A model generated the notes under the pieces. That model was not told where the DNA came from. It saw nothing but the letters and a program-made list of their open reading frames with translations, and searched no databases. A stretch of 64,000 bases of DNA from Aequorivita viscosa. GTDB lineage: Bacteria > Bacteroidota > Bacteroidia > Flavobacteriales > Flavobacteriaceae. A program made the translations under genes and the position numbers. Shown here in pieces: positions 14,296-36,267 of this stretch. Every line of letters starts with the position of its first letter. Within the stretch, counting starts at the first letter, position 1. The stretch spans positions 62,001-126,000 of the forward strand of contig NZ_FNNS01000003.1 of assembly GCF_900106795.1 (NCBI RefSeq), written 5' to 3'.

Positions 14296-14304
14296 AATTA
14301 GTAG

Positions 14305-14312
14305 TATATTTG
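14305..14312 (+). promoter_or_regulatory. -7 element for the DUF6909 gene
   Basis: TATATTTG, a full match, only 7 bp before the ATG at 14320. If used, transcription would start at or within a few bases of the start codon, giving a leaderless or nearly leaderless mRNA. No clear -33 element. Confidence 0.4.
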
Positions 14313-14319
14313 TATTTAT

Positions 14320-16025: not shown

Positions 16026-17033
16026 ATGAATGATAAAGTACTGATTACTGGAGGCGCAGGTTTCATTGGTTCCAATTACGTTGCCTATGTTGCTGAAAAC
16101 TCGAATGATGAAATTTTTGTGTTAGACAAGCTAACGTATGCAGGAGATCTTAAAAATTTAGAAGCTGTTTCAGATAAATTCACCTTTGTTGAAGGTGATA
16201 TTTGTGACGAAGAATTAATCAAAAAACTCTTCGCTGAACATCAATTTAATAAGGTTGTTCACTTTGCTGCAGAAAGCCATGTAGATAATTCTATTTCGGG
16301 TCCTTCAGAGTTTATTCAAACAAATATTGTAGGTACTTTTAATCTAGTTCATACAGCTTATAAAACTTGGATGAATAGCCCGAACGATTTAAAAAAGGAA
16401 TTCAAGAACGCACGTTTTTTACATATTTCAACCGATGAGGTTTATGGCACTTTAGGAGAAACTGGACTTTTTACCGAAAAAACCAGCTACGCGCCCAATA
16501 GTCCGTATAGCGCTTCAAAAGCATCTTCAGATTTTATTGTGCGGAGTTATTTTCACACTTTTGGATTGCCTGTTGTTACAACCAATTGTTCAAATAATTA
16601 TGGCCCCAATCAACATAAAGAAAAATTGATTCCAACAATTATTCGCAAAGCAATTTCCGGAGATTCTATTCCTATTTATGGCGACGGAAAAAACGTTCGC
16701 GATTGGCTTTACGTAATGGATCATTGCAGTGGTATTTTCTTGGCGTTAGAAAAAGGAAAGTTAGGCGAAACCTATAATATCGGGGGTCGCAATGAACGTG
16801 AAAATTTATACATAGCAAATGTAATTTGTGAATTGCTCGATGAAATGCTTCCGAAAAACGCATCGTATAAAGAGCAAATAACCTTTGTGAAGGATCGTCC
16901 TGGTCACGATTTTAGATATGCTATAGATGCAACAAAAATTGAAAATGAACTAGGCTGGAAAGCTAACGAGAATTTTGAAACAGGGATTCAGAAAACAATT
17001 GCTTGGTATTTAGATAAGAGAGATAGGTTATAA
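16026..17033 (+). CDS. rfbB: dTDP-glucose 4,6-dehydratase
   Basis: Second step of dTDP-L-rhamnose synthesis; extended SDR, 335 residues. NAD-binding GGAGFIGSNY is at about residues 8-17, HFAAESHVD near 80, STDEVYG near 140, and the catalytic YSASKASSD (YxxxK) near 167. It begins 5 bp after the DUF6909 gene. Its natural partners rfbA, rfbC and rfbD follow only after a toxin-antitoxin pair (17128-17650) that seems to split the operon. Confidence 0.97.
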   Translation: MNDKVLITGGAGFIGSNYVAYVAENSNDEIFVLDKLTYAGDLKNLEAVSDKFTFVEGDICDEELIKKLFAEHQFNKVVHFAAESHVDNSISGPSEFIQTNIVGTFNLVHTAYKTWMNSPNDLKKEFKNARFLHISTDEVYGTLGETGLFTEKTSYAPNSPYSASKASSDFIVRSYFHTFGLPVVTTNCSNNYGPNQHKEKLIPTIIRKAISGDSIPIYGDGKNVRDWLYVMDHCSGIFLALEKGKLGETYNIGGRNERENLYIANVICELLDEMLPKNASYKEQITFVKDRPGHDFRYAIDATKIENELGWKANENFETGIQKTIAWYLDKRDRL

Positions 17034-17062
17034 ATCTATCTTTTTAAAGTTATACGGTTGAA

Positions 17063-17088
17063 ATAACATTTGTATAACAGGTTGTTAT
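17063..17088. promoter_or_regulatory. Candidate operator of the toxin-antitoxin operon
   Basis: ATAACA at 17063-17068 and 17074-17079 (direct repeat, 11 bp apart, about one helical turn), then the inverted copy TGTTAT at 17083-17088 after a 3-nt gap. The inverted pair lies exactly between the -33 and -7 elements, where bound antitoxin would block RNA polymerase. The role is inferred from position and the known autoregulation of ribbon-helix-helix antitoxins. Confidence 0.5.
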
Positions 17089-17100
17089 TAGTTAAATTTG
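17069..17100 (+). promoter_or_regulatory. Bacteroidota-type promoter for the toxin-antitoxin pair
   Basis: TTTG at 17069-17072, a spacer of exactly 20 bp, and TAAATTTG at 17093-17100: full matches to the -33 and -7 elements. Start codon at 17128. Confidence 0.75.
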
Positions 17101-17127
17101 TCTGGAGTATAAAATAAGACTAAAAGC

Positions 17128-17373
17128 ATGAAAGTACAGACCGCATTTCGTTTTGACAAAGATTTGTTAGAACTCGTAAAGGAAAAAGCAAAAGCCGAAA
17201 AGCGAAGTCTAAACAATTATATAGAGTATTTGCTCTATCGTGAAGTGGGCAACATTCCCAATGCAGAAACGCAACAAGCGATTTATGAAGCTCATAATGA
17301 TATAAATCTTACAAAAATTGAAGATTTTAACAAATGGAGGGACTCGTTACTAAGTGGTGAGTTCGATGTATAA
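17128..17373 (+). CDS. Antitoxin of a type II toxin-antitoxin pair (ribbon-helix-helix)
   Basis: 81 residues. The first 40 look like a ribbon-helix-helix DNA-binding domain: a beta strand (VQTAFRFDKD) then two helices (LLELVKEKAKAEKRSLNNYIEYLL). The rest is acidic and probably disordered until toxin-bound (NLTKIEDFNKWRDSLLSGEF). Its stop overlaps the toxin start by 8 bp. A strong promoter with an operator-like repeat precedes it, which fits autoregulation. It sits between rfbB and rfbA and is not part of the sugar pathway. Confidence 0.82.
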   Translation: MKVQTAFRFDKDLLELVKEKAKAEKRSLNNYIEYLLYREVGNIPNAETQQAIYEAHNDINLTKIEDFNKWRDSLLSGEFDV

Positions 17374-17650
17374 TTTTATTTTTACCACCAAATTTAAGAA
17401 GGATTTTAAAAAGCTTCAGAAGCGAAATATGACAGATGTTAATTTGGCTGTTGCTGTTTTAGATATTCTTCGGGCTAATGGAGTTAAAGGCATTCCTCCA
17501 ACTATGACAACGCATAAATTGAAGGGAAAATATGAAGGAGATTGGGAATGTCATATAAAACCCGACCTTCTGATTATTTGGTTTCAAATAGAATCGCCCA
17601 AGACCATAAAATTGATTCGGATTGGTTCGTATTCAGAGCTGTTTGAATAG
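17366..17650 (+). CDS. YafQ family toxin (RelE superfamily)
   Basis: 94 residues from the ATG at 17366. YafQ is a ribosome-dependent mRNA endonuclease. The N-terminus YNFIFTTKFKKDFKKLQKR is typical. From family knowledge, the catalytic set in E. coli YafQ is H50, H63, D67 and H87; here H50 (THKLKG), H63 and D67 (CHIKPDL) are present, but the last His is replaced by Y89 in RIGSYSELF where homologues read GSHSELF/GTHSDLF. It could be a weakened toxin. A GTG at 17354 would add four residues, but the ATG overlapping the antitoxin stop is the usual arrangement. Confidence 0.85.
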   Translation: MYNFIFTTKFKKDFKKLQKRNMTDVNLAVAVLDILRANGVKGIPPTMTTHKLKGKYEGDWECHIKPDLLIIWFQIESPKTIKLIRIGSYSELFE

Positions 17651-17807
17651 TAATCGACCTTAAATTCACAATAATAAACCGTGAAAAATAATTTTAATGG
17701 GTTTAAAATCTTAGAAAACAGAAAGAGGTACGCACGGTAAAGCAGTAACTTTTTATTAGGCTTATTTGATAATCTGATAAGGTTTCCCCAAAGACCAAGG
17801 AAGCGTT

Positions 17808-17846
17808 CCTGCAAGGTTTCCCCGACGAAGGAGGGAACCTTGTAGG
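17808..17846. repeat. Imperfect hairpin repeat between the toxin gene and rfbA
   Basis: CCTGCAAGGTTTCCC (17808-17822) pairs with GGGAACCTTGTAGG (17833-17846) with one bulged T and one G-T wobble. The AAGGTTTCCCC half also occurs as a direct repeat at 17779-17789. It resembles dispersed intergenic hairpins (cctgcaaggtttt...aaaaccttgtagg) I recall from flavobacterial genomes; that link is from memory. It could also act as a terminator for the toxin pair, though it has no T-run. Confidence 0.5.
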
Positions 17847-17896
17847 TATAAAATTAGCCATTAAGACACTATATTTTAAAACAACAAATATATTAT

Positions 17897-18754
17897 ATGA
17901 AAGGAATAATTTTAGCAGGAGGCTCAGGTACACGTTTGCATCCTATTACACTAGCAGTTAGCAAGCAGTTGATGCCTGTTTATGATAAACCAATGATTTA
18001 TTACCCATTGTCCACTCTTATGTATGCGGGTATTAAGGATATTTTAATCATTTCTACACCTCAAGATCTGCCGCTTTTCAAACAACTTTTAGGTAATGGT
18101 TCAAAATTAGGGTGTAATTTTCAGTATGCCGAACAAGCCAACCCGAATGGCCTTGCCGAAGCTTTCATAATTGGTAAAGAATTTATAGGAAACGACAAGG
18201 TTGCTTTAATATTAGGCGATAATATTTTTTACGGCTCTGGTTTAAAAGAATTATTACAATCCAATAACGATCCCGATGGAGGCGTTATCTATGCGTACCA
18301 TGTGCTAGATCCAGAGCGTTACGGTGTTGTTGAATTTGATAAGGAAGGAAGAGCGCTTTCTATTGAAGAAAAGCCTTTAAAACCAAAATCTAATTATGCC
18401 GTGCCGGGAATTTATTTCTACGATAACAACGTAATAGATATAGCCTCAAACATTAAACCTAGTGGCCGTGGAGAGCTTGAAATTACCGATGTTAATAACG
18501 TGTATTTAAAACAAGGAAAACTTAATGTAAGCATACTGGATAAAGGTACTGCTTGGTTAGATACAGGCACTTTTGCTTCCTTGATGCAAGCAGCCCAGTT
18601 TGTTGAGGTAATTGAGGAAAGACAAGGCCTTAAGGTTGGCTCTATTGAAGAAGCAGCTTATGAAATGGGCTACATTTCAAAAGATGAATTAATAGCGATG
18701 GCAGAGCCTTTGTTGAAAAGCGGGTACGGAAAACATTTACTTCAACTAGATTAA
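17897..18754 (+). CDS. rfbA: Glucose-1-phosphate thymidylyltransferase
   Basis: First step of dTDP-L-rhamnose synthesis: Glc-1-P + dTTP to dTDP-glucose. 285 residues, normal length. The nucleotidyltransferase signature [14 protein letters not shown] is at residues 3-16, followed by [18 protein letters not shown], then LGDNIFYG near 110 and DTGTFASL near 225. It is followed after 2 bp by rfbC and then rfbD. It is preceded by about 245 bp containing hairpin repeats, so it may have its own promoter, although I see no clear TAnnTTTG. Confidence 0.98.
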
Positions 18755-18756
18755 AT

Positions 18757-19302
18757 TTGGAATTACAAAAATCCCCACTAAAAGATTGTTTTATTCTCAA
18801 ACCAAAGGTTTTTCGAGATGAACGTGGTCTGTTTTACGAGACTTATAATCAAAATGTTTTTGAAAAATTAACTGGAATAGAAACAAAATTTGTTCAAGAT
18901 AACCTTTCAATTTCTTCAAAAGGAGTATTGAGAGGGCTCCATTTTCAACGTGGAAATAGGGCTCAAGCCAAGCTTGTGCAGGTTGCCAAAGGAAAAGTAT
19001 TGGACATAGTTGTCGATATTCGAAGGCACTCCGAAACTTTTGGAAAATCATTTTCTGTTGTGCTAGACGATGTTGAGCGACTTCAGTTGTTTGTGCCAAG
19101 AGGATTTGCGCACGGCTTTATTACACTTTCAGAAGAATCTATTTTTACGTACAAATGCGATAATTATTACGATAAAGCTTCTGAAGGAGGAATTATATAC
19201 AACGACGCAACCTTAAACCTAGATTGGCATCTTCCAAAGGAAGAATTTATTGTTTCAGAAAAAGATTTGGAACTTCCTAGTTTTCACGACGCTATTAAAT
19301 GA
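18757..19302 (+). CDS. rfbC: dTDP-4-dehydrorhamnose 3,5-epimerase
   Basis: Third step of dTDP-L-rhamnose synthesis. 181 residues, starting at TTG 18757, 2 bp after rfbA; the N-terminus (LKDCFILKPKVFRDERG) only aligns with the family if this TTG is used. The catalytic His is in GVLRGLHFQ (about residue 63), with FVPRGFAHGF near 112 and the catalytic Tyr region TYKCDNYYDK near 131. The stop overlaps the rfbD start by 4 bp (ATGA). Confidence 0.96.
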   Translation: MELQKSPLKDCFILKPKVFRDERGLFYETYNQNVFEKLTGIETKFVQDNLSISSKGVLRGLHFQRGNRAQAKLVQVAKGKVLDIVVDIRRHSETFGKSFSVVLDDVERLQLFVPRGFAHGFITLSEESIFTYKCDNYYDKASEGGIIYNDATLNLDWHLPKEEFIVSEKDLELPSFHDAIK

Positions 19303-20159
19303 AAAAAATACTAGTTACTGGCGCAAACGGACAATTGGGAAGATGCATAAAAGATGCTTCGTCCAGATTTCCTGACTTTCAATTTGTCTTTGTTTCAAAG
19401 GAAGAACTCAATATTGAAGACCTCGATTCATTAAATCACTTCTTCAACAAACACAACTTTTCACATTGCATAAATACCGCAGCCTACACCAATGTTGAAA
19501 AGGCAGAAAGTGAAAAAGAAAGAGCTTTTGCCATTAATGCTGAAGCAGTTAAAAACCTAGCTTCCATTTGTAATAGAAATGAAACTGTTTTGCTTCATGT
19601 TTCTACAGATTATGTTTTTGACGGAAAAAAACAATCACCCTATTTAGAAACGGACGATACCAATCCGATTAATGTGTACGGCAGTTCCAAGCTTAAAGGG
19701 GAACAATACATTCAAGAAGTATGTGATAAATTCTACATTTTCCGTACTTCTTGGCTTTATTCACAATACGGACATAACTTCCTTAAAACAATTTTAAAAT
19801 ACGCGCACGAAGGAAAATCGCTAACCATTACAACAGAGCAAGTAGGAACACCCACAAATGCAAATGATTTGGCTAATGCATTATTACAATCGATAGCTAT
19901 AGACATTGAAGCTTACGGTATCTACCATTATAGTAACAGCGGCGAATCCACTTGGTATGGATTTGCGAAAGCAATACTACAAGAGACAGGGAAATTAGAA
20001 GACGTAAAACTTGCAAAAACAAACCATTACCGTACTTTTGCCAAGCGCCCAGCCTATAGTGTGTTGGACAATGCAAAGGCAACTAATGCATTAAACTTAC
20101 AACAGATAAATTGGCTTAAAAGCTTACAATCTGTATTAAAAAACACAGTCATTGATTAA
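19299..20159 (+). CDS. rfbD: dTDP-4-dehydrorhamnose reductase
   Basis: Last step of dTDP-L-rhamnose synthesis; SDR fold, 286 residues. NAD(P)H-binding GANGQLGR at residues 8-15, NTAAYTNVEKAE near 60, VSTDYVFDG near 102, and YGSSKLKGE with the YxxxK pair near 127. It overlaps rfbC by 4 bp. The Wzz-like gene starts 12 bp downstream, so the precursor genes and the polymer assembly genes seem to be transcribed together. Confidence 0.96.
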   Translation: MKKILVTGANGQLGRCIKDASSRFPDFQFVFVSKEELNIEDLDSLNHFFNKHNFSHCINTAAYTNVEKAESEKERAFAINAEAVKNLASICNRNETVLLHVSTDYVFDGKKQSPYLETDDTNPINVYGSSKLKGEQYIQEVCDKFYIFRTSWLYSQYGHNFLKTILKYAHEGKSLTITTEQVGTPTNANDLANALLQSIAIDIEAYGIYHYSNSGESTWYGFAKAILQETGKLEDVKLAKTNHYRTFAKRPAYSVLDNAKATNALNLQQINWLKSLQSVLKNTVID

Positions 20160-20171: not shown

Positions 20172-21134
20172 ATGGCACAGCAGAATACATCGGAAGAGAT
20201 AGATTTAGGGTATTTATTTAAAAAATCTAATGACTTTATTAAGAAGATTGTTAGAGGTTTTTTCCAAATTCTAGACTTTTTTAAAAGGTACTTTATAATA
20301 GTAATTGTGCTAATTATTTTAGGCTTTGCTTATGGTTACTATAAAGATGCAACAAGTAAGAAAACCTATATTAACGAGGCGTTGGTAATTCCAAATTTTG
20401 AAAGTGTCGATTATCTATACGACAAAGTTGAGGTTATCAACAACAAAATTTCCAGAAACGACACTTTGTATCTTAAACAAATACTCGACACTAATTTTCG
20501 GAAATTAAAAAATATTAAAATTGAACCAATAGCCGATATCTACAATTTTGTATCTAAATCTAGACGAAATTTTGATGTATTAAGGCTTATCGCCGAAAAA
20601 CAAGACTTTTCAGAATATATAGAAGACCTTTCTACAAGTAAATATTTTAAATATCACCGCATGAAAATCGCGGTTTCTGGCGATCGTTCTTCTGAAAAAA
20701 TAGTTGCTGATTTATTCACTTATTTAAACGGAAATGAAAATCTAGAAGCCTATCAAAAAGTATTTGTAGAAAACAATAAGTTTGAAATCAAGGAGCATTA
20801 TAACATGATTGCTCAAATAGATTCAATTTTAAAAGCTAGTGCCAAAATAGACGATAGAGCTTCAAATGTAACAATTAATAATAGCTCAGACTTGTTTAAC
20901 TTGATTGAGAAAAAAACTGAATTGTTAGAAAACATTGTTCAACTTAAAACGCAAGAAATTGACTTTTCAGCGCCGATTAAGGTTGTAAGTACCGATTACA
21001 ATTTAGAAATTAAAAGATTTTTGTCAATTTCAAACAAGGTTAAATATCCAATTCTATTTGTCTTTTTGTTTTCGATGGTGTTTTTCGCGCTTTATATTGT
21101 AAAAAGTTTAAAGCGATACGCCAAAGCCGATTAA
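20172..21134 (+). CDS. Wzz-like chain-length determinant family protein
   Basis: 320 residues with two membrane helices at the ends: about 40-60 (YFIIVIVLIILGFAYGYY) and about 290-310 (ILFVFLFSMVFFALYIV), enclosing a roughly 230-residue periplasmic segment rich in Lys/Asp/Glu. That is the topology of polysaccharide co-polymerases (Wzz). There is no C-terminal tyrosine-kinase domain. A role in O-antigen/EPS chain length or export is inferred from topology and location, not from strong motifs. Confidence 0.6.
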   Translation: MAQQNTSEEIDLGYLFKKSNDFIKKIVRGFFQILDFFKRYFIIVIVLIILGFAYGYYKDATSKKTYINEALVIPNFESVDYLYDKVEVINNKISRNDTLYLKQILDTNFRKLKNIKIEPIADIYNFVSKSRRNFDVLRLIAEKQDFSEYIEDLSTSKYFKYHRMKIAVSGDRSSEKIVADLFTYLNGNENLEAYQKVFVENNKFEIKEHYNMIAQIDSILKASAKIDDRASNVTINNSSDLFNLIEKKTELLENIVQLKTQEIDFSAPIKVVSTDYNLEIKRFLSISNKVKYPILFVFLFSMVFFALYIVKSLKRYAKAD

Positions 21135-21222
21135 GGTGTGATGCAAGTTCATTTTTACACAATCGCTGACGATTCTGCAATTGAGCACTTTCAATAAAGG
21201 GCATCATTATATTTAGTAGCTA

Positions 21223-22665
21223 ATGCTTTTTAACTCTATAGATTTTGCCATATTTTTTCCAATATTCTTTGTGGTTTATTGGATTGTCGCAAAAAAGCTA
21301 ACCCTTCGAAATGCTTTTCTATTAGCTTCTAGTTACCTGTTTTATGGTTGGTGGGACTGGCGTTTTCTGTTTCTTATACTGTTTAGTTCAATTGTTGACT
21401 TTACTATTGGTAAGAAAATTTACGCAGCTACAAACAAAAGGGTTCGAAAGAACTATTTGCTGGTAAGCCTTCTAATTAATCTAGGACTTTTAGGCTACTT
21501 TAAATACACCAACTTTTTCATTGATTCATTTATCAATTCATTCCGGTTTTTTGGAGGCGAAATGGATTCGTTCACCTTACAAATAATCCTTCCAGTTGGG
21601 ATTAGCTTTTACACTTTTCAAACCCTTAGCTATACCATTGATATTTATCGCGATAGAATTAAACCTACCAAGGATTGGTTATCGTTTTTCACCTTTGTAG
21701 CTTTCTTTCCGCAGTTGGTTGCGGGACCTATTGAACGCGCGTCCCATTTATTACCGCAGTTTTTTAAAACCTATAATTTCGATTATAAAGCTTTTAAAAG
21801 CGGATTGCTTTTAATGGCGTTTGGACTCTTTAAAAAAATGGTCATAGCAGATAGGCTCGCTATTGTGGTAAATGAAGTGTACGGCAATCCAACGGGGCAC
21901 AGTGGCCAAGATTTAATTATTGCAACGGTTTTCTTTGCCTTTCAAATTTATTGCGATTTTTCTGGGTATTCAGATATTGCAATTGGGATTTCCAGAATGC
22001 TTGGTTTCAATTTGATGAAAAACTTCGATACACCTTATTTTTCAACTTCAATTACAGCGTTTTGGAGAAGATGGCACATTTCACTGTCCACCTGGTTTAG
22101 GGATTATGTGTATATACCGTTAGGAGGTAGCAGAAATGGCGATTACAGAACTTATTTTAACCTGTTTATAGTTTTTGTGGTTAGCGGACTTTGGCACGGG
22201 GCAGCAATAAACTTTGTAATTTGGGGCGCAATTCACGGAATTATTATAGTGGCTGAAAAAGCATTGAGCAACACTGCTTTAAAAGTCAATAGAAAACCGC
22301 TAATTCCTTCAGTTCTATTTACCTTCATTACTTTCGGAATAGTCTGCTTTGCTTGGATATTTTTTAGAGCCAATACTTTTGCCGACAGTGTGTATATTGT
22401 TACAAACCTATTTAACTTCAACTTTGTGGATTGGAGTATCTATAATTTAGGCCTACCCTCCCACGAATTCGACTTTGCCGTAATCGTAATTATTTTACTA
22501 TTAATTTTTGATGCATTCCATAGAAAATATAATGCATTACGCGTTATTAATAAGTCCAATTTTGTTGTTCAGAGCCTAGTATATACATTGATTGTTTACA
22601 GTATCGTAATATTTGGTATTTATGGAAATGACAGTGTTTCCGAATTTATCTATTTCCAGTTTTAA
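21223..22665 (+). CDS. MBOAT family O-acyltransferase (AlgI-like)
   Basis: 480 residues, polytopic. Typical AlgI/DltB-type features: FNSIDFAIFFPIFF at the N-terminus, SYLFYGWWDWRFLFLIL, ISFYTFQTLSYTIDIYR, FPQLVAGPIERA, WRRWHISLSTWFRDYVYIPLGG and the catalytic-His segment SGLWHGAAINFVIWG. These proteins move acyl (usually acetyl) groups across the inner membrane for O-acylation of polymers such as alginate. The stop and the next ATG share a base (TAATG), coupling it to the SGNH-like protein that would be its periplasmic partner. Confidence 0.92.
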   Translation: MLFNSIDFAIFFPIFFVVYWIVAKKLTLRNAFLLASSYLFYGWWDWRFLFLILFSSIVDFTIGKKIYAATNKRVRKNYLLVSLLINLGLLGYFKYTNFFIDSFINSFRFFGGEMDSFTLQIILPVGISFYTFQTLSYTIDIYRDRIKPTKDWLSFFTFVAFFPQLVAGPIERASHLLPQFFKTYNFDYKAFKSGLLLMAFGLFKKMVIADRLAIVVNEVYGNPTGHSGQDLIIATVFFAFQIYCDFSGYSDIAIGISRMLGFNLMKNFDTPYFSTSITAFWRRWHISLSTWFRDYVYIPLGGSRNGDYRTYFNLFIVFVVSGLWHGAAINFVIWGAIHGIIIVAEKALSNTALKVNRKPLIPSVLFTFITFGIVCFAWIFFRANTFADSVYIVTNLFNFNFVDWSIYNLGLPSHEFDFAVIVIILLLIFDAFHRKYNALRVINKSNFVVQSLVYTLIVYSIVIFGIYGNDSVSEFIYFQF

Positions 22666-24128
22666 TGATGAAGAAACGAATTATTTCTATAGTTGTTCTG
22701 TTGGCGTTTTTAACGGCTGGATTTATCTATTTGAATAAGGTGTTTTCTTCTGTGCATTACTATGTAAACACCACCGAAGATTTTAAAGCTTTGGCAAAAA
22801 AAACGAATATTGATGTCATTGTTTATGGAAGTTCACACGCGTATACAGCTTATAACCCGTTAATAATTAATGATGTTTGTGAAACTATTAGTTATAATTT
22901 AGGCTCGGATGGTCTAAAAATGCCAATTACAGATATTGTCTTAGAAGAATCTTTAAAGTACACAAAACCGAAACTTATAATATTAGAAATTTATCCACCT
23001 ACCCTGACCCCGATAAAGACTGATGCCGACAAGGGATATCATTTAAGAGCAATGGATTTTGTGTCTAATTTTTCAATTAATAAGTTGAAAAAAACCGTAA
23101 GAGTATTTGATAAAAATGAATATTTTGGCGTTTATTTTCCACTAATTCGAAATCACACCAGTTGGAATGAGCAGGATTTTCTTAATCTTTCTAGAAGAAG
23201 ATACATAAACAGTAAAGAAAATTTTTATTACGGAGGTTTTTTAGGCGCTAGAAATATTCTTAAAGAAGAGGATAAAGAAAAGTATAAGGATTTTAAAAAT
23301 GCAACCAAAAAATTTGAACCTTCTAGAAAATTTATTGATAAACAAAATAAAGCCGATATTGAAAGCTTTGTAAGTCTCGCTAAAAATGCAGGAGCTAAAA
23401 TTTTGGTGGTTTCATCGCCCGATCCACGTGCTACCACCGAATTCAATTACTCATTCTTTGACGAACTTGGTGAATATTGTAAATCATTAAATATCGATTT
23501 CCTAAACCTAAATGAGTATTATGAGGAGATGGATTTAAAAATTGAAGATTTCAAAGACAAATCTCATTTAAACACCTTTGGAAGCATAAAAGCCACCCAA
23601 TTGTTAGCCCAATATGTAAAGGAAAATTATGAGCTACCTAAAAGATCGGATGAAGACATTTGGAAGCAAGAAATGAGAGAATATGAGTACTTTGAGTATG
23701 ATTATTATGAGTTTCAAAAGAAATCCTTTCGCGCTGCAATAAACGCTTATTTAAGTAAAGATGTTTTCGTTAACGATGTTTCAGTAATAAGAAACAGTAA
23801 AACAGAATTAAGATTCAATATTAACCTTGACAAGGATAAAACCAATTTGAATACTTTGAACAACTATATTTTGGGAGTTCATATATATCCTGATAAAGAA
23901 GATATATCTTCACTTAGTAATGCCAGTAAATTGAAAAAAAACGAATACGATCAAACCAACATACGTTTAAAAAGCCAAGAAAACTCCATAGTTTTTAATA
24001 TGGAAACTGAAATTAGGCGAATCAATAAAATTGAGCTCTTTCTGTTTGATAAAGATGGGTACGATGGTGTTATTGGTGATAGAATAGTAATTAACGACAT
24101 TACATTTAAAATACAAAAGGATGAATAG
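22665..24128 (+). CDS. Membrane-anchored SGNH-like protein (AlgJ/AlgX-like acetyltransferase candidate) with extra C-terminal domain
   Basis: 487 residues with an N-terminal signal anchor (about 5-22). Residues about 45-320 look like an SGNH/GDSL fold: block I VIVYGSSHAYTAYNP (51-65) and a C-terminal DKSHLN giving D298 and H301 (DxxH). Together with the MBOAT gene immediately before it, this mirrors AlgI with AlgJ/AlgX/PatB pairs that O-acetylate exopolysaccharide in the periplasm. A further C-terminal domain (about 365-483, ending GDRIVINDITFK) also occurs in the small lipoprotein at 25680-26159. The acetyltransferase role is inferred. It overlaps the epimerase gene by 8 bp. Confidence 0.7.
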   Translation: MMKKRIISIVVLLAFLTAGFIYLNKVFSSVHYYVNTTEDFKALAKKTNIDVIVYGSSHAYTAYNPLIINDVCETISYNLGSDGLKMPITDIVLEESLKYTKPKLIILEIYPPTLTPIKTDADKGYHLRAMDFVSNFSINKLKKTVRVFDKNEYFGVYFPLIRNHTSWNEQDFLNLSRRRYINSKENFYYGGFLGARNILKEEDKEKYKDFKNATKKFEPSRKFIDKQNKADIESFVSLAKNAGAKILVVSSPDPRATTEFNYSFFDELGEYCKSLNIDFLNLNEYYEEMDLKIEDFKDKSHLNTFGSIKATQLLAQYVKENYELPKRSDEDIWKQEMREYEYFEYDYYEFQKKSFRAAINAYLSKDVFVNDVSVIRNSKTELRFNINLDKDKTNLNTLNNYILGVHIYPDKEDISSLSNASKLKKNEYDQTNIRLKSQENSIVFNMETEIRRINKIELFLFDKDGYDGVIGDRIVINDITFKIQKDE

Positions 24129-25671
24129 TTATAGTGCCAAATTTGCAATCGTTTTATTACTCGTAAGTGTTATAAGTAGTTGTTCCGATAAGAATAAACA
24201 GCAAGCTGACCAAACGAAGGTTGATGCTATCTCTAAGAGCGATACAATAAGTCTTAGCGAAAGTTTAGCTAAACGATTTAAAAACACCTACGACAACCAT
24301 ATTGTAACTTTCAACGATGGCACTACCATGGATATTTCCAAACCCTTACAATTTGATTCTATTAAGGAAGTGTCGCATACTTTTTTTGTTGGAGATAATA
24401 TTGAGCCGATAGAAGATTTAGAAACCGACAGTAATGGAGTAGCTATTTTAGACGGTAATTATCACCCAACAGTAATTGGTAAAGTTGCATTAAAAGCGAT
24501 TAACTACTACAAAAAAACTAAATCGGAAGCAGCTAAAAAAGTGTTTTTAGATCAGATGAAATGGGCTGAGAAGAACTTTTATGAAACTGATAATTATGGT
24601 TTTTGGTATTTTGAGGTTTCTGCCCCTTTATATCATTTAGAGCCTGGTTGGACTTCAGCATTTAGTCAGGGGTTGTTGTTAAACGCTTCCTTAGAGGCTT
24701 ATAGATTAACGGGGGATAAAAAGTATACCAGATTAATCGAAAAAGGGCTTAAGGCATATATGGTTCCAGTCGAAAATGGAGGCTTTCTAAGGGGTTGGGA
24801 CGAAGGCGAACTGTGGTTTGAAGAATATGGAACCGAAAGGCCTTCAAGGGTTTTAAACGGCACTATTTACGGTTTAGAAGGGGTGTATAATGTCTATAGG
24901 GATTTAAACTCACAATTAGCACTAAAAATATTTGAATCAGGCGTTGAAACCATCAAGAATCATCTCGAAGATTATGATGCAAAATATACTTCTCGTTATA
25001 GTTTGGCGGATTGGAAAAATGAAATTTCTCAAGAAAATTATCATGAGGGTCATGTAATTCAATTATTATGGTTGTACGAAGTTTCTGGGGATGAAATTTT
25101 TAAAAAATATGCTCAGATATTCCTAAATTCTGATTTAGGAGGTTTTATGACACGAAGTATTTACAAGTTAGATAAACCAAAAATCACCAATGTGGAGGCA
25201 AGTTTTTGTATTGATTGTGAAAAACATGGTCCAGAAAATTTAACTGATGAGCTATGGGCTCACGGAAACTATTGGAGCGCACATAAACCAGCTGATTTAA
25301 TCGTGGATTTTGGAGATGAAAAAGAAAATATCTCCGGCGTAACCTTGTATCATGTTTCAGCTCAAAGTGTTAATGTGAACTTCGATATTTTTGCTTTTAA
25401 TAGTGATACGAATGAATGGAGTCTTGTTCAAAAATTTGACACCAAACATATAAAAGATAGGGTTGCTGGTTATAATGAAACAGGGAAATTTGAAACATTT
25501 ATCGAACACTACAAAATATTTGAACCATTGAATGGTAGAAAGGTGAAAATATCATTTTATGCTGATGCTAATAATATCATTGCTATCAGAGAGTTAAATT
25601 TTAATTATGACCGAAAAAAGGAATTGGATTATATAATTTCAAGAATGAAAAATAGAATTGCAAATCCATAG
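24121..25671 (+). CDS. D-glucuronyl C5-epimerase-like lipoprotein with discoidin-like C-terminal domain
   Basis: 516 residues. Type II signal peptide with lipobox Cys at residue 21 (SVISSC). Residues about 110-350 match the glucuronyl C5-epimerase C-terminal domain (heparan/heparosan type): SAPLYHLEPGWTSAFSQG, LWFEEYGTERPSRVLNG and NYHEGHVIQLLWL. The three tyrosines needed in vertebrate epimerases seem to be present: Y250 in NGTIYGLEG, Y289/Y293 in KYTSRYSL, and Y307 in ENYHEGH. The last 150 residues look like an F5/8-type carbohydrate-binding sandwich (HGNYWSAHKPADLIVDFGDE). Expected reaction: C5 inversion of D-glucuronate to L-iduronate at polymer level on the cell surface; substrate inferred. 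Confidence 0.75.
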   Translation: MNSYSAKFAIVLLLVSVISSCSDKNKQQADQTKVDAISKSDTISLSESLAKRFKNTYDNHIVTFNDGTTMDISKPLQFDSIKEVSHTFFVGDNIEPIEDLETDSNGVAILDGNYHPTVIGKVALKAINYYKKTKSEAAKKVFLDQMKWAEKNFYETDNYGFWYFEVSAPLYHLEPGWTSAFSQGLLLNASLEAYRLTGDKKYTRLIEKGLKAYMVPVENGGFLRGWDEGELWFEEYGTERPSRVLNGTIYGLEGVYNVYRDLNSQLALKIFESGVETIKNHLEDYDAKYTSRYSLADWKNEISQENYHEGHVIQLLWLYEVSGDEIFKKYAQIFLNSDLGGFMTRSIYKLDKPKITNVEASFCIDCEKHGPENLTDELWAHGNYWSAHKPADLIVDFGDEKENISGVTLYHVSAQSVNVNFDIFAFNSDTNEWSLVQKFDTKHIKDRVAGYNETGKFETFIEHYKIFEPLNGRKVKISFYADANNIIAIRELNFNYDRKKELDYIISRMKNRIANP

Positions 25672-25679
25672 ACTTATTA

Positions 25680-26159
25680 ATGATGAACTTCAGGTTATTT
25701 AAAATAGTTTTAATATTGAGTACAGCTTCTATTATTTTAAGTTGTCAGAATCAGTTTGGCATAGAAAATCTCAATAACGGTTTGTCAGATTATAGACATA
25801 TTAGAAATATCAATCAGTCATTTGTAAATAATTTTGAAGTAAATAAAACCGCTTTTTTTCAAGCACATAAAGATAGTCTTGGCATCGTTTTAAAACTGAA
25901 TGACCAAATTGATTCAAGTCTTGTTGAGAACTATAGTTTGGGAATGTATTTATATCAAGATGAACAACATTTGTTTAATGAAGAAGTCGCTTGGAATCCA
26001 CATCCGAAAATTCAAACCTTTAATAATCATAAATATTTTATAGAGACCATAGCTGTTCCACATACTCAAATTGACACCTTAGTTTTTTATTTATTTGATC
26101 GAGACAAATACAGAACTATAATCGGAAATAGAATTGTTTTGAAAAATATTGCCTTTTAG
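25680..26159 (+). CDS. Small lipoprotein sharing a domain with the SGNH-like protein
   Basis: 159 residues. Signal peptide with lipobox Cys at 22 (SIILSC). Function unknown. Residues about 53-159 resemble the C-terminal domain of the protein at 22665-24128: LGMYLYQDE versus LGVHIYPDK, and YLFDRDKYRTIIGNRIVL versus FLFDKDGYDGVIGDRIVI. It starts 8 bp after the epimerase gene, so the domain flanks the epimerase on both sides. A role in holding or presenting the polymer to the modifying enzymes is possible but unproven. Confidence 0.7.
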   Translation: MMNFRLFKIVLILSTASIILSCQNQFGIENLNNGLSDYRHIRNINQSFVNNFEVNKTAFFQAHKDSLGIVLKLNDQIDSSLVENYSLGMYLYQDEQHLFNEEVAWNPHPKIQTFNNHKYFIETIAVPHTQIDTLVFYLFDRDKYRTIIGNRIVLKNIAF

Positions 26160-26170
26160 AAGGAAAGATA

Positions 26171-27415
26171 ATGAGCACAAAACTATTCTTAAAAAACATT
26201 CTTCTTAACAACACATCGCAAGGCCTTCAATTTGGCTCAAGGTGGTTGTTTAATATTACGCTCATCAATATCCTTAGCATTCACGACTATGCAATTTTTT
26301 CATTTGTGTATTCAGCTTCTAATATCCTGATGGCATTTATGCCTTTCGGAAGCCCCATTTTTTTAATTAATGAAACTCAGACGATTGAAAAAAGTAAAAA
26401 GACTTTTTTAAACTCTATTTATATAACGTCGCTAATTTTTATTGCGACCTTATCTTTATATTTTATTTTAACTCCTTTTTTAGAATTTGTAAAAGGTTGG
26501 GATTTATTGATATATGGAATTGTTTTAGGATTTGTTCTCTCACTTAACCTCATTTTGTTTTCTTTTTACAAAGGTGCAGGAGATTTTCTAAAAGAACTAA
26601 AAGCATATATCTATTTCTTTTTATTATTGATTTTATTCATTGGGTATTTATTCCTTTGGGAAAATCCAGTATCTAATTTACATTTCATTTTCTTGGTTCT
26701 TATTGCTATTAATCTTTTTGTCTTTCTCCTTTCTATTTTATTAGATCGGTCTATTTTGAAAGACAGCTCGCGCAAACAATCCTTATCAAAAGAAAATTTA
26801 AAGCAAAGTTTTTTAGAAAGAAAATACTTTGGATATCAAGATATGGTTACTGCGCTATACACTCAATCAGGAATGATACTCCTCTTTTATCTTCTTGATA
26901 CAGAGACTTATGGTTATTATAGAGCCTTATTTGTGATAATAGCCCCCGTCTATCTAATTACAGTTTCAATGTCGCAGGTAGTGTTGTCTTATTTAAAAAA
27001 GCTAAGCGGAAAAAGCTTGCTCAAAAACTTTAGGAAACTCCAATTATATAGTTTTCTGGTAGGTTTTGGAATTCTGTTGCTGTTATATTTTTTCAAAGAC
27101 TTTATTTTCCAGCTTATAAAAGTGCCAAGTAATGATATAACGCTCTTGGCTTTTGTTATAGTTCTTGTAACAGCGTTGACCCGATTTGTATTCGCCAATT
27201 ATGAAATGCTTCTTATCATTCTTGATAAGCAAAAGTTTAGATTCTACATTGTATTTATTGTGGCGATTATCAATATTATCTTGGTATTTATGTTGCTTCC
27301 AAAACATGGATTGATAGGTGCGGTTTCAACTAACTTCTTCACATACTTCGCACTTTTAGTAGGACTATCGTATTTTACAGAGAAATTCCTTAAATTGAAA
27401 GGAAATTCTGACTAA
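26171..27415 (+). CDS. Polysaccharide flippase (Wzx-like, MOP superfamily)
   Basis: 414 residues with about 12 predicted membrane helices and little else. The N-terminus LLNNTSQGLQFGSRWLFNI, Lys-rich loops and a late polar segment (NYEMLLIILDKQKFRFY) fit O-antigen/EPS flippases that move undecaprenyl-linked repeat units to the periplasm. It is the only flippase candidate in the locus. It starts 11 bp after the small lipoprotein gene. The downstream 423 bp hold only a gene remnant. Confidence 0.8.
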   Translation: MSTKLFLKNILLNNTSQGLQFGSRWLFNITLINILSIHDYAIFSFVYSASNILMAFMPFGSPIFLINETQTIEKSKKTFLNSIYITSLIFIATLSLYFILTPFLEFVKGWDLLIYGIVLGFVLSLNLILFSFYKGAGDFLKELKAYIYFFLLLILFIGYLFLWENPVSNLHFIFLVLIAINLFVFLLSILLDRSILKDSSRKQSLSKENLKQSFLERKYFGYQDMVTALYTQSGMILLFYLLDTETYGYYRALFVIIAPVYLITVSMSQVVLSYLKKLSGKSLLKNFRKLQLYSFLVGFGILLLLYFFKDFIFQLIKVPSNDITLLAFVIVLVTALTRFVFANYEMLLIILDKQKFRFYIVFIVAIINIILVFMLLPKHGLIGAVSTNFFTYFALLVGLSYFTEKFLKLKGNSD

Positions 27416-27473
27416 GGACACATCTATTTGTTATGTGTATTATAAAGAAGTGTCTTTTAAAAAAACTAAACTT

Positions 27474-27563
27474 ATGAAACCATTATTATTTACCTTATTT
27501 GCACTTTTAAATGCAAGTGCTTATGCCCAATTTCAAGAACATATAATCGAATCATGCTCGTAA
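27474..27563 (+). pseudogene. Truncated N-terminus of a secreted protein (signal peptide only)
   Basis: ATG followed by 29 codons and TAA. MKPLLFTLFALLNASAYAQ is a complete, well-formed signal peptide with an AYA-Q cleavage site, followed by FQEHIIESCS and a stop. The mature start QFQEHII resembles flavobacterial secreted repeat (VCBS-type) proteins, from memory. A signal peptide with no mature protein suggests the remnant of a gene whose body was lost. Confidence 0.6.
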
Positions 27564-27838
27564 ATAGCCTCATTTTATCACGTAGTTTAGTTATCTGAAT
27601 TATTTATAATAGCGTTGCTGTGGTTTAATAGTATCTTTACATTCAAAATTCTAAAAACTCTTTCTTGCGTAATTTTTTGGTTCTTTAAACGTTCAGATTT
27701 ATCAACACTTTATTACGATTTGAATTAAATAGTGCTTTAGTTTAATTCTCAATATTGCTTAACGTATTAAGGTTCTTATATTCGCTTCAAATATTAGCTT
27801 GACATTTTTTGGTGAGGCTAATTATTACTAATAAATGA
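27564..27838. other. Intergenic region without recognised genes
   Basis: AT-rich. No frame with coding character. It probably holds the promoter of the following polymerase-like gene, but I find no convincing TTTG/TAnnTTTG pair, only TATCTTTA at 27632-27639, a one-mismatch -7 element. Confidence 0.5.
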
Positions 27839-29056
27839 ATGAAAGTACTATTAGAGAAAATTAGTATTCGCGCATTGCCTTATTTGCGGCTGTTCGTAAT
27901 TGTTTTTTTATTAATTAATTTAATTGGCATTATCAATTTTCCTTTTTACAAGGAAAAAATGGAGAATGGAGTACTCTATTTATTAGTTTTTTTAGGATTA
28001 ATAGGATTTATTTCTGGAACTTTATTAATAAGAATACTTAAAATTAAATTTTCACCCAGTAAGGGATCTTTTAAACCTCACGTCCTAAAGGTTATATTCT
28101 GGGGTTCAAACATTTTTTCTTTTGTTCTCATTCTTGCTACGCACGCTATGAATGGCGGTATCATAATTTTAATGGGGGCAGCCCGATTTAAAACAATTTC
28201 ATATACTAATATCTTCATTTACTTAGGAATTGTTACAACCTTACTGTTTTTCAGCAGTGAATTATTGGCAAATAAAAAAGTAAAATGGTGGCATATAATT
28301 TTTATTGCGATTCAATCAGTTTCGGTTCTTTCTTTAGGATATAGATCTCCATTAATCATTTTAGCAGGTGGATGTGCACTCATTTTTGTAATTGTTCGAA
28401 ATGATTTTCAAAATAATTATAAAAACGTATTCACTTTTAGAAACCTCTTAGTGGTATTAGGAGTTCTAGTTTTGATGTCCTCCATTTCGTCCTACAGAGT
28501 TAGTAGGCAATATGACGTAAGAAAATTCTTTAAGAATGTCGATTTAGACTATATGGATGATCATAGTTATCTTATGCCATTTATGCCTACTTTGGCCGTG
28601 TTTAGATATGATCAAGAAGTGGTGAAAACATTGGTTGAAAAGACTGAAGGAAACCATTACTACGGTTATTTAGCTATAGCTAATTTTCTTACTGTTCTGC
28701 CTGGTGAACAACTAGGGGTTAGAAACATTATTGGTGAAATAGTTGAGGCCCGTAAGCTCCCTGATGGAAAACCCTGGAGTATTACTCCTACACTACAAGG
28801 AGCATTGTTTGTAGATGGTGGTTATTTTGGTGTTTTCTTTGGCTTCTTTGTTTTAGGAGTTTTTATAGAATATCTAAAAAAACTTATGAAGGCTAAAAAG
28901 GACCCTTTTTCAATTGCTCTTTATGTTTTAGTTACTATAAATGCCTTAATGCTAATTCATACAGGCTATTTTGATGTCGTTTTCTTTATCTTATTGTTCG
29001 TAATTCTATTTTTAAAAATAGTTGTTATGCGCATTAAATACACTATTCCAAATTAA
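27839..29056 (+). CDS. Oligosaccharide repeat unit polymerase (Wzy-like)
   Basis: 405 residues with about 11 membrane helices. A large central periplasmic loop contains VSRQYDVRKFF and LTVLPGEQLGVRNI, followed by TPTLQGALFVDGGYFGVFFG near 300-320, a pattern I associate with the O-antigen polymerase/oligosaccharide repeat-unit polymerase family. It would join flipped repeat units in the periplasm. Four Wzy/WaaL-like proteins occur in this locus (with those at 31597, 32888 and 35008); this one belongs to a different subfamily from the others. The GT4 gene follows after 9 bp. Confidence 0.72.
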   Translation: MKVLLEKISIRALPYLRLFVIVFLLINLIGIINFPFYKEKMENGVLYLLVFLGLIGFISGTLLIRILKIKFSPSKGSFKPHVLKVIFWGSNIFSFVLILATHAMNGGIIILMGAARFKTISYTNIFIYLGIVTTLLFFSSELLANKKVKWWHIIFIAIQSVSVLSLGYRSPLIILAGGCALIFVIVRNDFQNNYKNVFTFRNLLVVLGVLVLMSSISSYRVSRQYDVRKFFKNVDLDYMDDHSYLMPFMPTLAVFRYDQEVVKTLVEKTEGNHYYGYLAIANFLTVLPGEQLGVRNIIGEIVEARKLPDGKPWSITPTLQGALFVDGGYFGVFFGFFVLGVFIEYLKKLMKAKKDPFSIALYVLVTINALMLIHTGYFDVVFFILLFVILFLKIVVMRIKYTIPN

Positions 29057-29065
29057 GAAACACCG

Positions 29066-30139
29066 ATGAAGATACTCCTAATCTCCAATATGTACCCTTC
29101 CACAAAGGATGGACTTTTCGGCGTTTTCGTGAAAAATTTCGTCGAAAACCTAGAGCGTCAAGGTGCGCGTTTTTCACATTTGGCAGTTATTAAAGGAAAA
29201 ACACCTAGTGCTATTACTAAAGCCCTGAAATATCTTTTTCATTATATCAATTCACTATTTTATGGGGTTTTCAGCAAAAGTGACTTCATATATATACATT
29301 TTTTATGGCACCATACTCCAATAATAATTCTATTAGGAGGTGTTTTCAGAAAGAAAATTGTGGTTAATATTCACGGCTCCGATATAACACAATTCAATAG
29401 TTCCAAGCTTCAAAAAAAGATAAATGCATTTGCTTTAAAGTATGCTAAAAGGGTAGTGGTGCCTTCTCAGTATTTTGTCGAAATCATTAAAGATGCTTTT
29501 CCAGAGGTTGCGGTCAATAATATCATTGTTTATCCTTCTGGTGGTATAAACAGAAATGTTTTTAAGCTCGAAAATCATAAACAACCCGAAAAAGGAGTTA
29601 TTAACATCGGGATGACTTCTAGAATTGATGCCAATAAAGGTTGGGATGTTTTTCTAAAAGCTGTAGCAGAATTGAAAAATAAAGGATATTCAGTTAATGG
29701 ATTTATTATTGGACAAGGAAATAAAGAAGCCGAAATGTTGCAATTGCGAAAAGAGCTGAACCTTGAAAGTGAAATAGCATTCTTGGGATTACTGTCTCAA
29801 AGCCAAATCGTTTCGCACTATAAAAACCTAGATTTATTTGTGTTTCCCACAGCACTCAATGAAAGTTTGGGCTTGGTAGGCCTGGAAGCTATGTCGTGCG
29901 GTTTGCCGGTAATAGCGAGTAATATTGGTGCTCCTTCTGCCTATATAAATGAAGGTGTGAACGGATTTCTTTTTGAAACGAATAATGTTGAAAGTTTGAC
30001 AAAACGAATTATAGAATACAATTCAATATTAGATGTAGATAAGCTCACAATGCGTAAAAATGCAATTTCTACTGCAATTCAGTATGATAGTGAAAAAGTA
30101 TCCGCAAATTTGTATCAGCAACTTTTGGAACTATGTTAA
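29066..30139 (+). CDS. Glycosyltransferase family 4
   Basis: 357 residues with the GT-B fold. The N-terminus [21 protein letters not shown] is typical of GT4 enzymes; NIHGSDI lies near 110, the nucleotide-sugar region [18 protein letters not shown] near 187-204, and the C-terminal E-x7-E region [19 protein letters not shown] near 270-288. It transfers a sugar (retaining mechanism) onto the lipid-linked repeat unit in the cytoplasm; donor and acceptor unknown. It overlaps the acetyltransferase gene by 7 bp. Confidence 0.92.
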
Positions 30140-30648
30140 AAAAACTTGGTCTGGCATGCTATTATGCCATATTCTATAACCTGCCCCACTCCCGATTCTT
30201 GTCGTTTACAAGTACTTGGCGGGTTTGGTATGTTTCCAAAGTATTAAAACTGATGCCTTTTGATAAAAGAAGCAAAATAGAATACAACGTATATCTCTCA
30301 AATGCTAACGGGATTTCAATAGGGTATAATTGCAGGATTAATGAAAATGTATTTATCCAACAAGCAGTTATCGGCAACAATGTATTAATTGCACCGAATG
30401 TGGCAATCCTAAGTGTTTCGCACAATCACGAAAATCTTGAAATACCCATTGTAGATCAGGGAGACACTGAGCCTAATCCACCTATTATTAAAGATGGAGT
30501 TTGGTTGGGAAGAAATGTGGTTGTTATGCCTGGAATTACCATTGGGGAAGGAGCAATTGTTGGCGCTGGTGCCGTTGTAACAAAAGATGTAGCGCCATTT
30601 ACGGTAGTTGGGGGTGTTCCGGCTAAATTAATTAAGTCTCGAAAGTAA
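30133..30648 (+). CDS. Left-handed beta-helix acyltransferase (hexapeptide repeat)
   Basis: 171 residues. Hexapeptide repeats run from about residue 55 to the end ([24 protein letters not shown], cut by an active-site loop with [12 protein letters not shown]), ending with [17 protein letters not shown] and PAKLIK. This is the maltose/colanic-acid acetyltransferase type, using acetyl-CoA on a sugar in the cytoplasm. Coupled by overlap to the GT4 gene, so it probably acetylates the repeat unit; the exact acceptor is unknown. Confidence 0.88.
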
Positions 30649-30739
30649 TTTGAAATATCAGCGATTAACTAAGGTGCGCACAGCGGAATAACTAGCAGGA
30701 TGCTCATTGTGTGTTTTAAAAAACTAATAGTATTTACAG

Positions 30740-31591
30740 ATGAAATTTGGGTTTGTCCTTTTTCTTTTCAGCTTTTTACTCGCTTGCACTCCGCAAGACC
30801 TCGAGTTGGATGACCCAATAATTATTGTCGTTGCGGGACAAAGCAATGCTGTAGGAGCCGGCAATGCGGCAGAATCAGCTACTGGACTTAAAAATTGTTT
30901 TGAATACAACTCCATACTCAATGCAATTACACCCCTTCAAGATCCAGTGGGTCAAGTTGATTTAGGTTTTGAACAAGCTGTTACAGGAAGCTTATCTCCT
31001 TCTTTGGCCTTAAACCTTTCGAAAATTACCAATCAGGAAATATTAATTGTCCAATGTGCCAAGGGCGGTAGTGCATTACACCCTTTAGCCGAACAAAATA
31101 ATTGGGGTGTTTGGGGTAAAACAGGTGGTTTACTCTCAAACAGCTATAGAAAAATAGACAGAGCATTGTCAAAAATTGCCGAATCTTCAAATAGCCAACC
31201 TAAACTCAATGCTATTATTTGGTCTCAAGGTGAAAATGATGGTGAAGCGATAGGTAAAGGGAAATTAACCCGTTTGCAATACAAAAGTTCATTACAAAAG
31301 CTAATAAATAACTATCGTAACAAATACGGAGCTGCACTTCCGTTCATTATTGTTGAAACAGGTAGAAATGTAAGTTGTAGAATATGCGATTCTGGTTTTG
31401 AAATCGTTAGGCAAGTACAACGTGAGGTAGCCGATGAAGATAATTATACTTTTATTGGTTATAGTGAAACTGAATATTTTGAACAAAGAAATTGGCTACA
31501 AGACCCAGTGCATTATAATCAAACAGCACTAAATCACATAGGAGAAACCTTGGCTAACTTCTTGGTGGCTTCACAAATAGACATTTATTGA
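30740..31591 (+). CDS. SASA-domain carbohydrate esterase lipoprotein
   Basis: 283 residues with lipobox Cys at 16 (SFLLAC). The sialate O-acetylesterase (SASA, SGNH superfamily) domain is visible: block I VVAGQSNAVGAG with the nucleophile S35, a middle SQGENDGE, and C-terminal DPVHYNQTALNHIGE supplying Asp and His. It is expected to remove O-acetyl groups from glycans at the cell surface, the opposite of the MBOAT/SGNH pair upstream. It overlaps the frame of the next gene near its stop. Confidence is high for the fold and lower for the substrate. Confidence 0.85.
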   Translation: MKFGFVLFLFSFLLACTPQDLELDDPIIIVVAGQSNAVGAGNAAESATGLKNCFEYNSILNAITPLQDPVGQVDLGFEQAVTGSLSPSLALNLSKITNQEILIVQCAKGGSALHPLAEQNNWGVWGKTGGLLSNSYRKIDRALSKIAESSNSQPKLNAIIWSQGENDGEAIGKGKLTRLQYKSSLQKLINNYRNKYGAALPFIIVETGRNVSCRICDSGFEIVRQVQREVADEDNYTFIGYSETEYFEQRNWLQDPVHYNQTALNHIGETLANFLVASQIDIY

Positions 31592-31596
31592 TAGAT

Positions 31597-34039: not shown

Positions 34040-34053
34040 TTTGAATAGTCTAA

Positions 34054-34791: not shown

Positions 34792-34890
34792 CATATCGCC
34801 CTCCCCCTCGGGGGACCGCTTCATAAAAGAGCAATTTTCTAAAAAATAATTCGGATAAGACTATGAGTTCCGAACTTTTGAACAACGTGA

Positions 34891-34956
34891 ACTGAAAACT
34901 GCGACTGCCCACTGAACAACTCTCTTCTAAAATCTCACATCTAATATCTAATATCT
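34891..34956. repeat. Short heptamer-spaced repeats between wecG-like and ligase genes
   Basis: ACTG occurs at 34891, 34898, 34904 and 34911 (steps 7, 6, 7), followed by a tandem ATCTAAT heptamer at 34939-34956 (2.6 copies). The surrounding 216 bp have no coding character. It resembles intergenic heptamer clusters I recall from other Flavobacteriia. Confidence 0.5.
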
Positions 34957-36252: not shown

Positions 36253-36267
36253 AAGGAATGCAAATTG

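Follow-up and report, generated by a model that had tools for sequence, protein, structure and literature searches.

What does a bacterium make with a gene cassette that sets an acetylation pair beside a heparan-type glucuronyl C5-epimerase (GLCE)? We addressed this question in Aequorivita viscosa, using a stretch of 64,000 nucleotides (NCBI RefSeq assembly GCF_900106795.1, contig NZ_FNNS01000003.1, positions 62,001 to 126,000; hereafter the window). The cassette consists of four forward-strand genes that encode an MBOAT O-acyltransferase (21223-22665), an SGNH-type partner (22665-24128), a GLCE-type C5-epimerase lipoprotein (24121-25671) and a small lipoprotein (25680-26159). The MBOAT and SGNH genes overlap by 1 base, the SGNH and epimerase genes overlap by 8 bases, and a gap of 8 bases separates the epimerase from the small lipoprotein. 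These open reading frames (ORFs) agree with the four overlapping or closely spaced genes of a first-pass annotation, which had read them as an alginate-like cassette for a polysaccharide resembling animal glycosaminoglycans (GAGs). Our data point elsewhere: with somewhat better than an even chance, the cassette would modify a heteropolysaccharide of the Wzx/Wzy type by O-acetylation and uronate C5-epimerisation, most likely of D-glucuronate (GlcA) to L-iduronate (IdoA).

We first consider the epimerase. The protein matched PF06662 (C5-epim_C) at residues 157-333 (6.5e-42; 143.6 bits against a cut-off of 23.3), and its significant PDB matches were the GLCE structures 6hzz, 4pw2 and 6i01 (4e-15 to 1e-14, residues 145-332; next match 0.04). 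No AlgG-type family was among the Pfam matches listed for the protein, and its earlier placement in the heparan/heparosan-type family rather than with AlgG held. The accessible text of PMC13308652 gives E499, Y500, N510, Y560 and Y578 as key residues of human GLCE. In the PDB-search alignment, with positions counted by hand, these corresponded to E235, Y236, N246, Y293 and Y307, which were kept in 22, 18, 21, 21 and 22 of 22 sequences (window protein, two phage proteins and one plasmid protein included; G799, L104, whose protein phmmer did not label as an epimerase, left out). The first-pass annotation had named Y250, Y289/Y293 and Y307 as the tyrosines the family needs. Y293 and Y307 stood, and column 289 held Tyr in 8/22 sequences. 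Y250 was rejected as a catalytic tyrosine (Tyr in just 5/22); the equivalent of GLCE Y500 is Y236. Given the four sequences without Y236, some members of the family may lack activity or differ in it; the window and A. echinoideorum proteins retain this residue, and they grouped together in a tree of the 22 (100/99), joined weakly by the protein of genome G697 (82/56). Overall, the window protein looks like an intact member of the GLCE family, of predicted activity, and its genomic setting is unusual.

The structure model of the epimerase, built on an alignment of four sequences, was weak (pLDDT 56.9 overall, below 50 at residues 234-243 and 285-308). It held eight helices between residues 116 and 337, and the first eight PDB fold matches of this low-confidence model were all GLCE (3e-7 to 1.1e-6; TM 0.32-0.33). 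Neither a different fold nor misplaced tyrosines emerged against the first-pass annotation, one tyrosine having been misnamed, and the (alpha/alpha) barrel is a possible fold on such a model. Further down the list of fold matches came CBM32 domains (3e-5 to 6e-4), including those of two alginate lyases, AlyB and AlyQ, as well as GH76 and others. The C-terminus (~357-495) is predicted to be CBM32/discoidin-like in this sense, with no Pfam match to CBM32 or F5_F8 in the window protein. Matches named SAKe, obtained with the tail alone (5.5e-11 and weaker), were taken as spurious, the strong ones having no single passing stretch. By eye, a lipobox-like cysteine ends the N-terminal hydrophobic stretch of both the epimerase and the small protein (VISSC, IILSC), as expected of the lipoproteins they had been called.

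The acetylation pair was equally recognisable. The MBOAT call was confirmed by PF03062 (2.1e-28) and by a C-terminal FIYFQF (FxYxxF, Tyr477); this tail and the WHG histidine (His325 here) were present in 10/10 MBOATs checked. The NCBIfam DltB model gave the window protein 148.6 bits, far under its cut-off of 375. In PatA, the tyrosine of FxYxxF carries the acetyl group, according to the accessible part of PMC12148441. The SGNH protein has an N-terminal hydrophobic stretch and no Pfam match above cut-off. Its Ser57 (GSS, 55-57) and His301 (DKSH, 298-301) were invariant in 11/11 aligned MBOAT partners, and position 298 was Asp in 7/11 and Asn in 4/11. These motifs uphold the SGNH half of the earlier "SGNH (AlgJ/AlgX-like)" assignment; membership of AlgJ/AlgX was rejected. 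In AlgJ the DxH motif stands before the serine (PMC4148444, as far as its text is accessible), and AlgX D174, H176 and S269 follow the same order, whereas Ser57 of the window protein precedes DxxH (298-301) in the canonical Ser-first order. The adjacent genes therefore represent an MBOAT-SGNH acyltransferase pair of the general kind, for which a role in acetylation is credible. The pair shares its gene adjacency, FxYxxF tail, and Ser and DxxH motifs with PatAB, DltBD and AlgI plus AlgJ/AlgX.

Unlike known MBOAT-SGNH pairs, the window SGNH protein ends in a domain (358-480) without a Pfam match or a PDB sequence relative at E <= 10. We found the same domain in the small lipoprotein: BLASTP matched it to the SGNH C-terminus at 3e-7, and a hidden Markov model (HMM) from six stand-alone lipoproteins found SGNH residues 358-480 at 9.3e-14 (0/1100 in a shuffle control at E <= 10). 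This HMM also matched three further SGNH proteins (5e-25, 2e-6, 3e-3), giving 4/11 MBOAT partners in all. By sequence, the C-terminal domain of the SGNH protein recurs as a free-standing copy in the small lipoprotein. The shared domain had no name in Pfam or NCBIfam. It occurred in 12/249 genomes of the family, own included, when the query alignment held both window copies, and in 4/148 relatives, own included, when a single sequence was used. Proteins of 156-189 amino acids matched by full-length SGNH queries were counted as stand-alone lipoproteins, and a probable chance match (L133, 396 amino acids) was kept in the domain-locus counts. The small lipoprotein was modelled as a beta-sandwich (pLDDT 72.5; alignment of three sequences).

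The loci around this domain held further features. A 908-amino-acid reading frame in G834 (L127) has two matches to the domain and adjoins wecC. In G876, two shared-domain genes alternate with cysC and cysD. Sulfotransferase genes lie in the stretches covered around the domain in G876, G873 and G938, and also beside an MBOAT-SGNH pair with cysCDN in G071 (these observations are from L123 4606-9272, L129 4144-4965, L130 3414-6679 and L056 3961-4782).

We next asked in what kind of locus the cassette sits. It lies between rfbBACD plus a Wzz-like gene on one side and a Wzx-Wzy pair on the other. We take rfbBACD (16026-20159, forward strand) to be dTDP-L-rhamnose genes: rfbB (16026-17033) is backed by a family model (TIGR01181, 2.9e-137), and rfbA, rfbC and rfbD (17897-18754, 18757-19302, 19299-20159) were named by eye from their translations. 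The membrane protein at 20172-21134 (forward strand) matched no Pfam family above cut-off and is presumably Wzz-like; its gene was at the same place in 3/3 genus mates that have the small lipoprotein. Downstream, on the same strand, are a Wzx-type flippase (26171-27415; PF01943 2.1e-7, 31.1 bits, cut-off 28.2), which starts 11 bases 3' of the small lipoprotein, a Wzy-type polymerase (27839-29056; PF01901 2.4e-19) and a SASA-family carbohydrate esterase (30740-31591; PF03629 2.7e-19) with a lipoprotein-like N-terminus by eye. The esterase had no PDB relative at E <= 0.01 and may be a de-O-acetylase of the same locus. The UDP-xylose synthase of the first-pass annotation was recovered at 36296-37279 (forward strand; 358 bits to UDP-glucuronic acid decarboxylase 1, 4gll/2b69). 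A family scan of ORFs of at least 120 amino acids across 20172-40016 assigned only a group-1 transferase, a WecG-type transferase and a sugar-phosphate transferase among glycosyltransferase families.

G+C content was 29-33% across 20-28 kb and 34-39% elsewhere in the window; polysaccharide loci are commonly low in G+C in their variable part. Internal promoters and terminators were rejected as evidence (39 promoter-like sites against 36.6 expected; 2 terminator-like against 3.8). Upstream of the locus (12799-16020) are a gene resembling GH3 acyl-acid amido synthetases and a DUF6909 gene. Both A. echinoideorum and G697 have the DUF6909 gene upstream as well, and there an ORF next to it looks GH3-like by eye.

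To what extent do the four genes travel together? With the window protein as query, epimerase homologues were found in 2/148 relatives and 16/395 phylum genomes, own included. The PF06662 model matched 51/395 genomes of the order, 40 of them over the cut-off and mostly by short, weak matches; six, own included, were followed, and the remaining matches were short, with at most ~32 bits for a single stretch. Wide surroundings were compared for 12 of the 16 phylum matches (the window is our own; G165, G197 and G397 were left out). In the neighbourhood comparisons, ORFs of less than 110 or 90 amino acids, or overlapping a longer ORF by at least 40%, were left out. The 12 homologues were 309-334 amino acids long, too short for the CBM32-like tail. 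An MBOAT lay within the surroundings of an epimerase in 1/19 loci. SGNH matches occurred in 12/148 genomes, and in 6/6 loci compared besides our own and G022 the MBOAT-SGNH pair was without an epimerase. These counts led us to reject a fixed four-gene alginate-like unit.

The neighbours of the small lipoprotein varied. In the window and A. echinoideorum its neighbour was a C5-epimerase; in G022 it was a PF14099 polysaccharide lyase (3.8e-21; no solved sequence relative at E <= 1). G873 also had a PF14099 lyase (7e-21), in the order wecB-wecC-MBOAT-SGNH-SGNH-lyase, and G020 had the small lipoprotein with neither epimerase nor PF14099 lyase in the 16 kb seen. Lyases and C5-epimerases both act at C5 of uronates. 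The exchange of lyase and epimerase in the same position therefore hints at a uronic acid in the polymer, the counts being small. A wider reading, which we hold tentatively, is that flavobacterial Wzy-type loci have an exchangeable extracytoplasmic "uronate slot" beside the lipoprotein domain, which would handle the polymer. A GLCE-type epimerase would fill the slot in some strains and a PF14099 lyase in others, and an MBOAT-SGNH pair that carries the same domain may accompany either. In the window, this slot would yield an O-acetylated, iduronate-containing surface polysaccharide by epimerisation after polymerisation, parallel to heparan sulfate maturation with a different assembly machinery.

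Relatives were also found outside these loci. A contig scan with two peptide patterns only returned two epimerase loci and is little informative on abundance. Three plasmid records are annotated as D-glucuronyl C5-epimerase family protein, so the family itself has already been named by annotators. C5-epim_C proteins were present in 15 Pseudomonas aeruginosa phage records, one Bradyrhizobium phage and seven IMG/VR contigs (L066-L072). No relatives emerged when viral contigs were scanned with A1, L035 or the Bradyrhizobium phage protein as query; the Pseudomonas phage query found seven. The Pseudomonas phage protein QBI79947.1 (MK511001) resembles the window enzyme in its C5-epim_C domain, a sub-threshold F5/8 region and a signal-like N-terminus, and differs in that EEM replaces EEY and the phage gene has no polysaccharide locus. 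The 560-amino-acid Pseudomonas phage protein at MK511001.1 3737-5419 (L063) is annotated as hypothetical. In G025 (L055 9250-12036), a 928-amino-acid lipoprotein-like protein with a GH63/trehalase-like domain (PF22422 1.3e-29) directly precedes the MBOAT-SGNH pair.

The identity of the uronate depends on the sugar-nucleotide genes. We found two PF03721 dehydrogenases in the genome, none of them in the window. One is a UDP-glucose 6-dehydrogenase (647 bits) on another contig, C49, and the UDP-xylose synthase of the locus needs its product, UDP-GlcA. At 26-29% identity (28-29% for the second), neither of the two dehydrogenases counts as an orthologue of the WecC found in genus mates, which favours GlcA. 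In A. echinoideorum, wecB-wecC and ugd are all in the locus. These data favour GlcA, and hence iduronate as the likely product, for the window strain, with N-acetylmannosaminuronate (ManNAcA) as a possible substrate.

Several observations weigh against this reading. The second dehydrogenase, also on C49, has as its nearest PDB relatives a protein titled UDP-ManNAcA dehydrogenase (hypothetical) and Cap5O (~159 bits each), and the window itself encodes a UDP-GlcNAc 2-epimerase (40821-41927; PF02350 1.6e-107) that is 34% identical to wecB of G022. With this 2-epimerase and second dehydrogenase, a ManNAcA route is open, which slightly lowers the GlcA reading and raises its amino-uronate alternative. 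Ugd is on another contig, and UDP-GlcA could serve xylose alone. G697 encodes a 499-amino-acid epimerase lipoprotein beside Wzx, without the small lipoprotein or an MBOAT in 20 kb. The epimerase model is weak in pLDDT (56.9) and in TM to GLCE (0.32), and that of the small lipoprotein matched just generic Ig/C2-like folds, none at E <= 0.001. The surface-export signal is only partial (CSDKNK compared with SDDFE), so that the location may be the periplasm or the surface, and the polysaccharide is known here from its genes alone.

An exported C5-epimerase might instead act on an amino-uronic acid, converting ManNAcA to N-acetylgulosaminuronate (GulNAcA) or acting on N-acetylgalactosaminuronate (GalNAcA), and no iduronate would be formed. 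This explanation draws on the UDP-GlcNAc 2-epimerase, on the WecG-type transferase in the locus, on the likeness of the second dehydrogenase to ManNAcA/GalNAcA-type enzymes and on wecC, which lay within three genes of the shared domain in 10/15 loci, A. echinoideorum among them. In the window strain, however, no wecB-wecC pair occupies the position of the cassette, the window is without wecC, no dehydrogenase of the genome is close to the genus-mate wecC, and the GLCE-type enzymes described in the sources as far as accessible act on GlcA. We therefore regard it as unlikely, if worth keeping in view. A genuine polymer of the heparosan or chondroitin kind that contains iduronate, close to what the first-pass annotation proposed, is far less probable and in our view hardly to be expected. 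The GLCE-family enzyme and a source of UDP-GlcA would suit it. So would the APS kinase gene and the four Sulfotransfer_3 genes that the genome has in other places, but the sulfation genes are outside this locus. GAG capsules are marked by a dedicated GlcA/HexNAc polymerase that replaces Wzx/Wzy; here Wzx and Wzy are directly downstream, and no GAG-synthase-like gene was among the families assigned to 20172-40016 (a scan of the locus, with no genome-wide search). The rhamnose and xylose genes together with Wzx/Wzy argue against a heparosan-type chain, and no positive evidence for the animal-GAG-like polysaccharide emerged.

It is also conceivable, at a very low probability, that the protein aids export and does not epimerise, being either a lyase or an inactive relative that binds the polymer. 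The poorly modelled active-site region (pLDDT below 50 at 234-243 and 285-308) and the absence of Y236 from 4/22 sequences would fit, but all five catalytic residues are kept in the window and A. echinoideorum proteins. Scavenging, in which foreign polysaccharides at the cell surface and not the strain's own polymer would be the target of the epimerase and the small lipoprotein, seems to us most improbable. The epimerase is a lipoprotein, and alginate lyases are among the proteins whose CBM32 domains its tail resembles; against this, its reading frame overlaps the SGNH gene, Wzx begins 11 bases after the small lipoprotein, and three genomes (window, A. echinoideorum, G697) have the epimerase within the same synthesis locus. 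Taken together, the genes for rhamnose, xylose and Wzx/Wzy point to a heteropolysaccharide with O-acetyl groups, in which part of the GlcA is probably epimerised to IdoA (ManNAcA being possible), rather than to a heparosan-like chain.

The sulfation genes deserve separate mention. On C49 (L030, 11550-15856), an APS kinase, a PAPS-reductase-domain protein, an EF-Tu-like GTPase and the UDP-glucose dehydrogenase are encoded side by side; from the gene order we take the second and third to be CysD and CysN. With the four Sulfotransfer_3 genes, a sulfated, GlcA-containing polymer from another locus is possible.

The analysis shows the gene order, families, catalytic residues, domain sharing and the UDP-GlcA and UDP-xylose genes; activity, substrate, product, location and a binding role for the two accessory domains are inferred. 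Modification would occur after the polymer crosses the inner membrane. The MBOAT would move acetyl from acetyl-CoA onto its own C-terminal tyrosine, and the SGNH partner would hand the acetyl groups to the polymer. The epimerase would hold the chain by its CBM32-like tail and invert C5 of a uronic acid, most likely turning D-glucuronate into L-iduronate, by the tyrosine-based proton-transfer chemistry of GLCE. The small lipoprotein, which has the same beta-sandwich as the SGNH C-terminus, would probably present the polymer to these enzymes.

This arrangement resembles known systems in parts. The window enzyme shares the C5-epim_C domain and five catalytic residues with GLCE (human 6HZZ, zebrafish 4PW2) and differs as a bacterial lipoprotein with an extra CBM32-like C-terminus, the sequence match being limited to residues 145-332. 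Alginate modification (AlgG, AlgI/J/F/X, AlgL) is alike in outline, combining acetylation with post-polymerisation C5-epimerisation or lysis outside the cytoplasm; the epimerase family, the SGNH motif order and the Wzx/Wzy-type assembly differ, and the two are not homologous as systems. Closest by description only, in the accessible text, is the GLCE-type enzyme RED65_08024 of Bermanella marisrubri (Raedts 2013), whose natural polymer is unknown. The accessible text of a 2026 paper (PMC13308652) calls it the only identified bacterial glucuronyl C5-epimerase and gives bacterial IdoA as known from a limited number of species. The titles and abstract beginnings searched, which mostly did not cover subscription papers, held no description of the present locus.

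Here a GLCE-type enzyme belongs to a defined locus for polysaccharide synthesis, and named strains of its genus are in culture. This would make it possible to ask which natural polymer a bacterial GLCE relative acts on, and iduronate chemistry could gain a second source of enzyme. The shared lipoprotein domain, newly noticed here, can be tested for polymer binding and marks part of the polysaccharide loci of flavobacteria.

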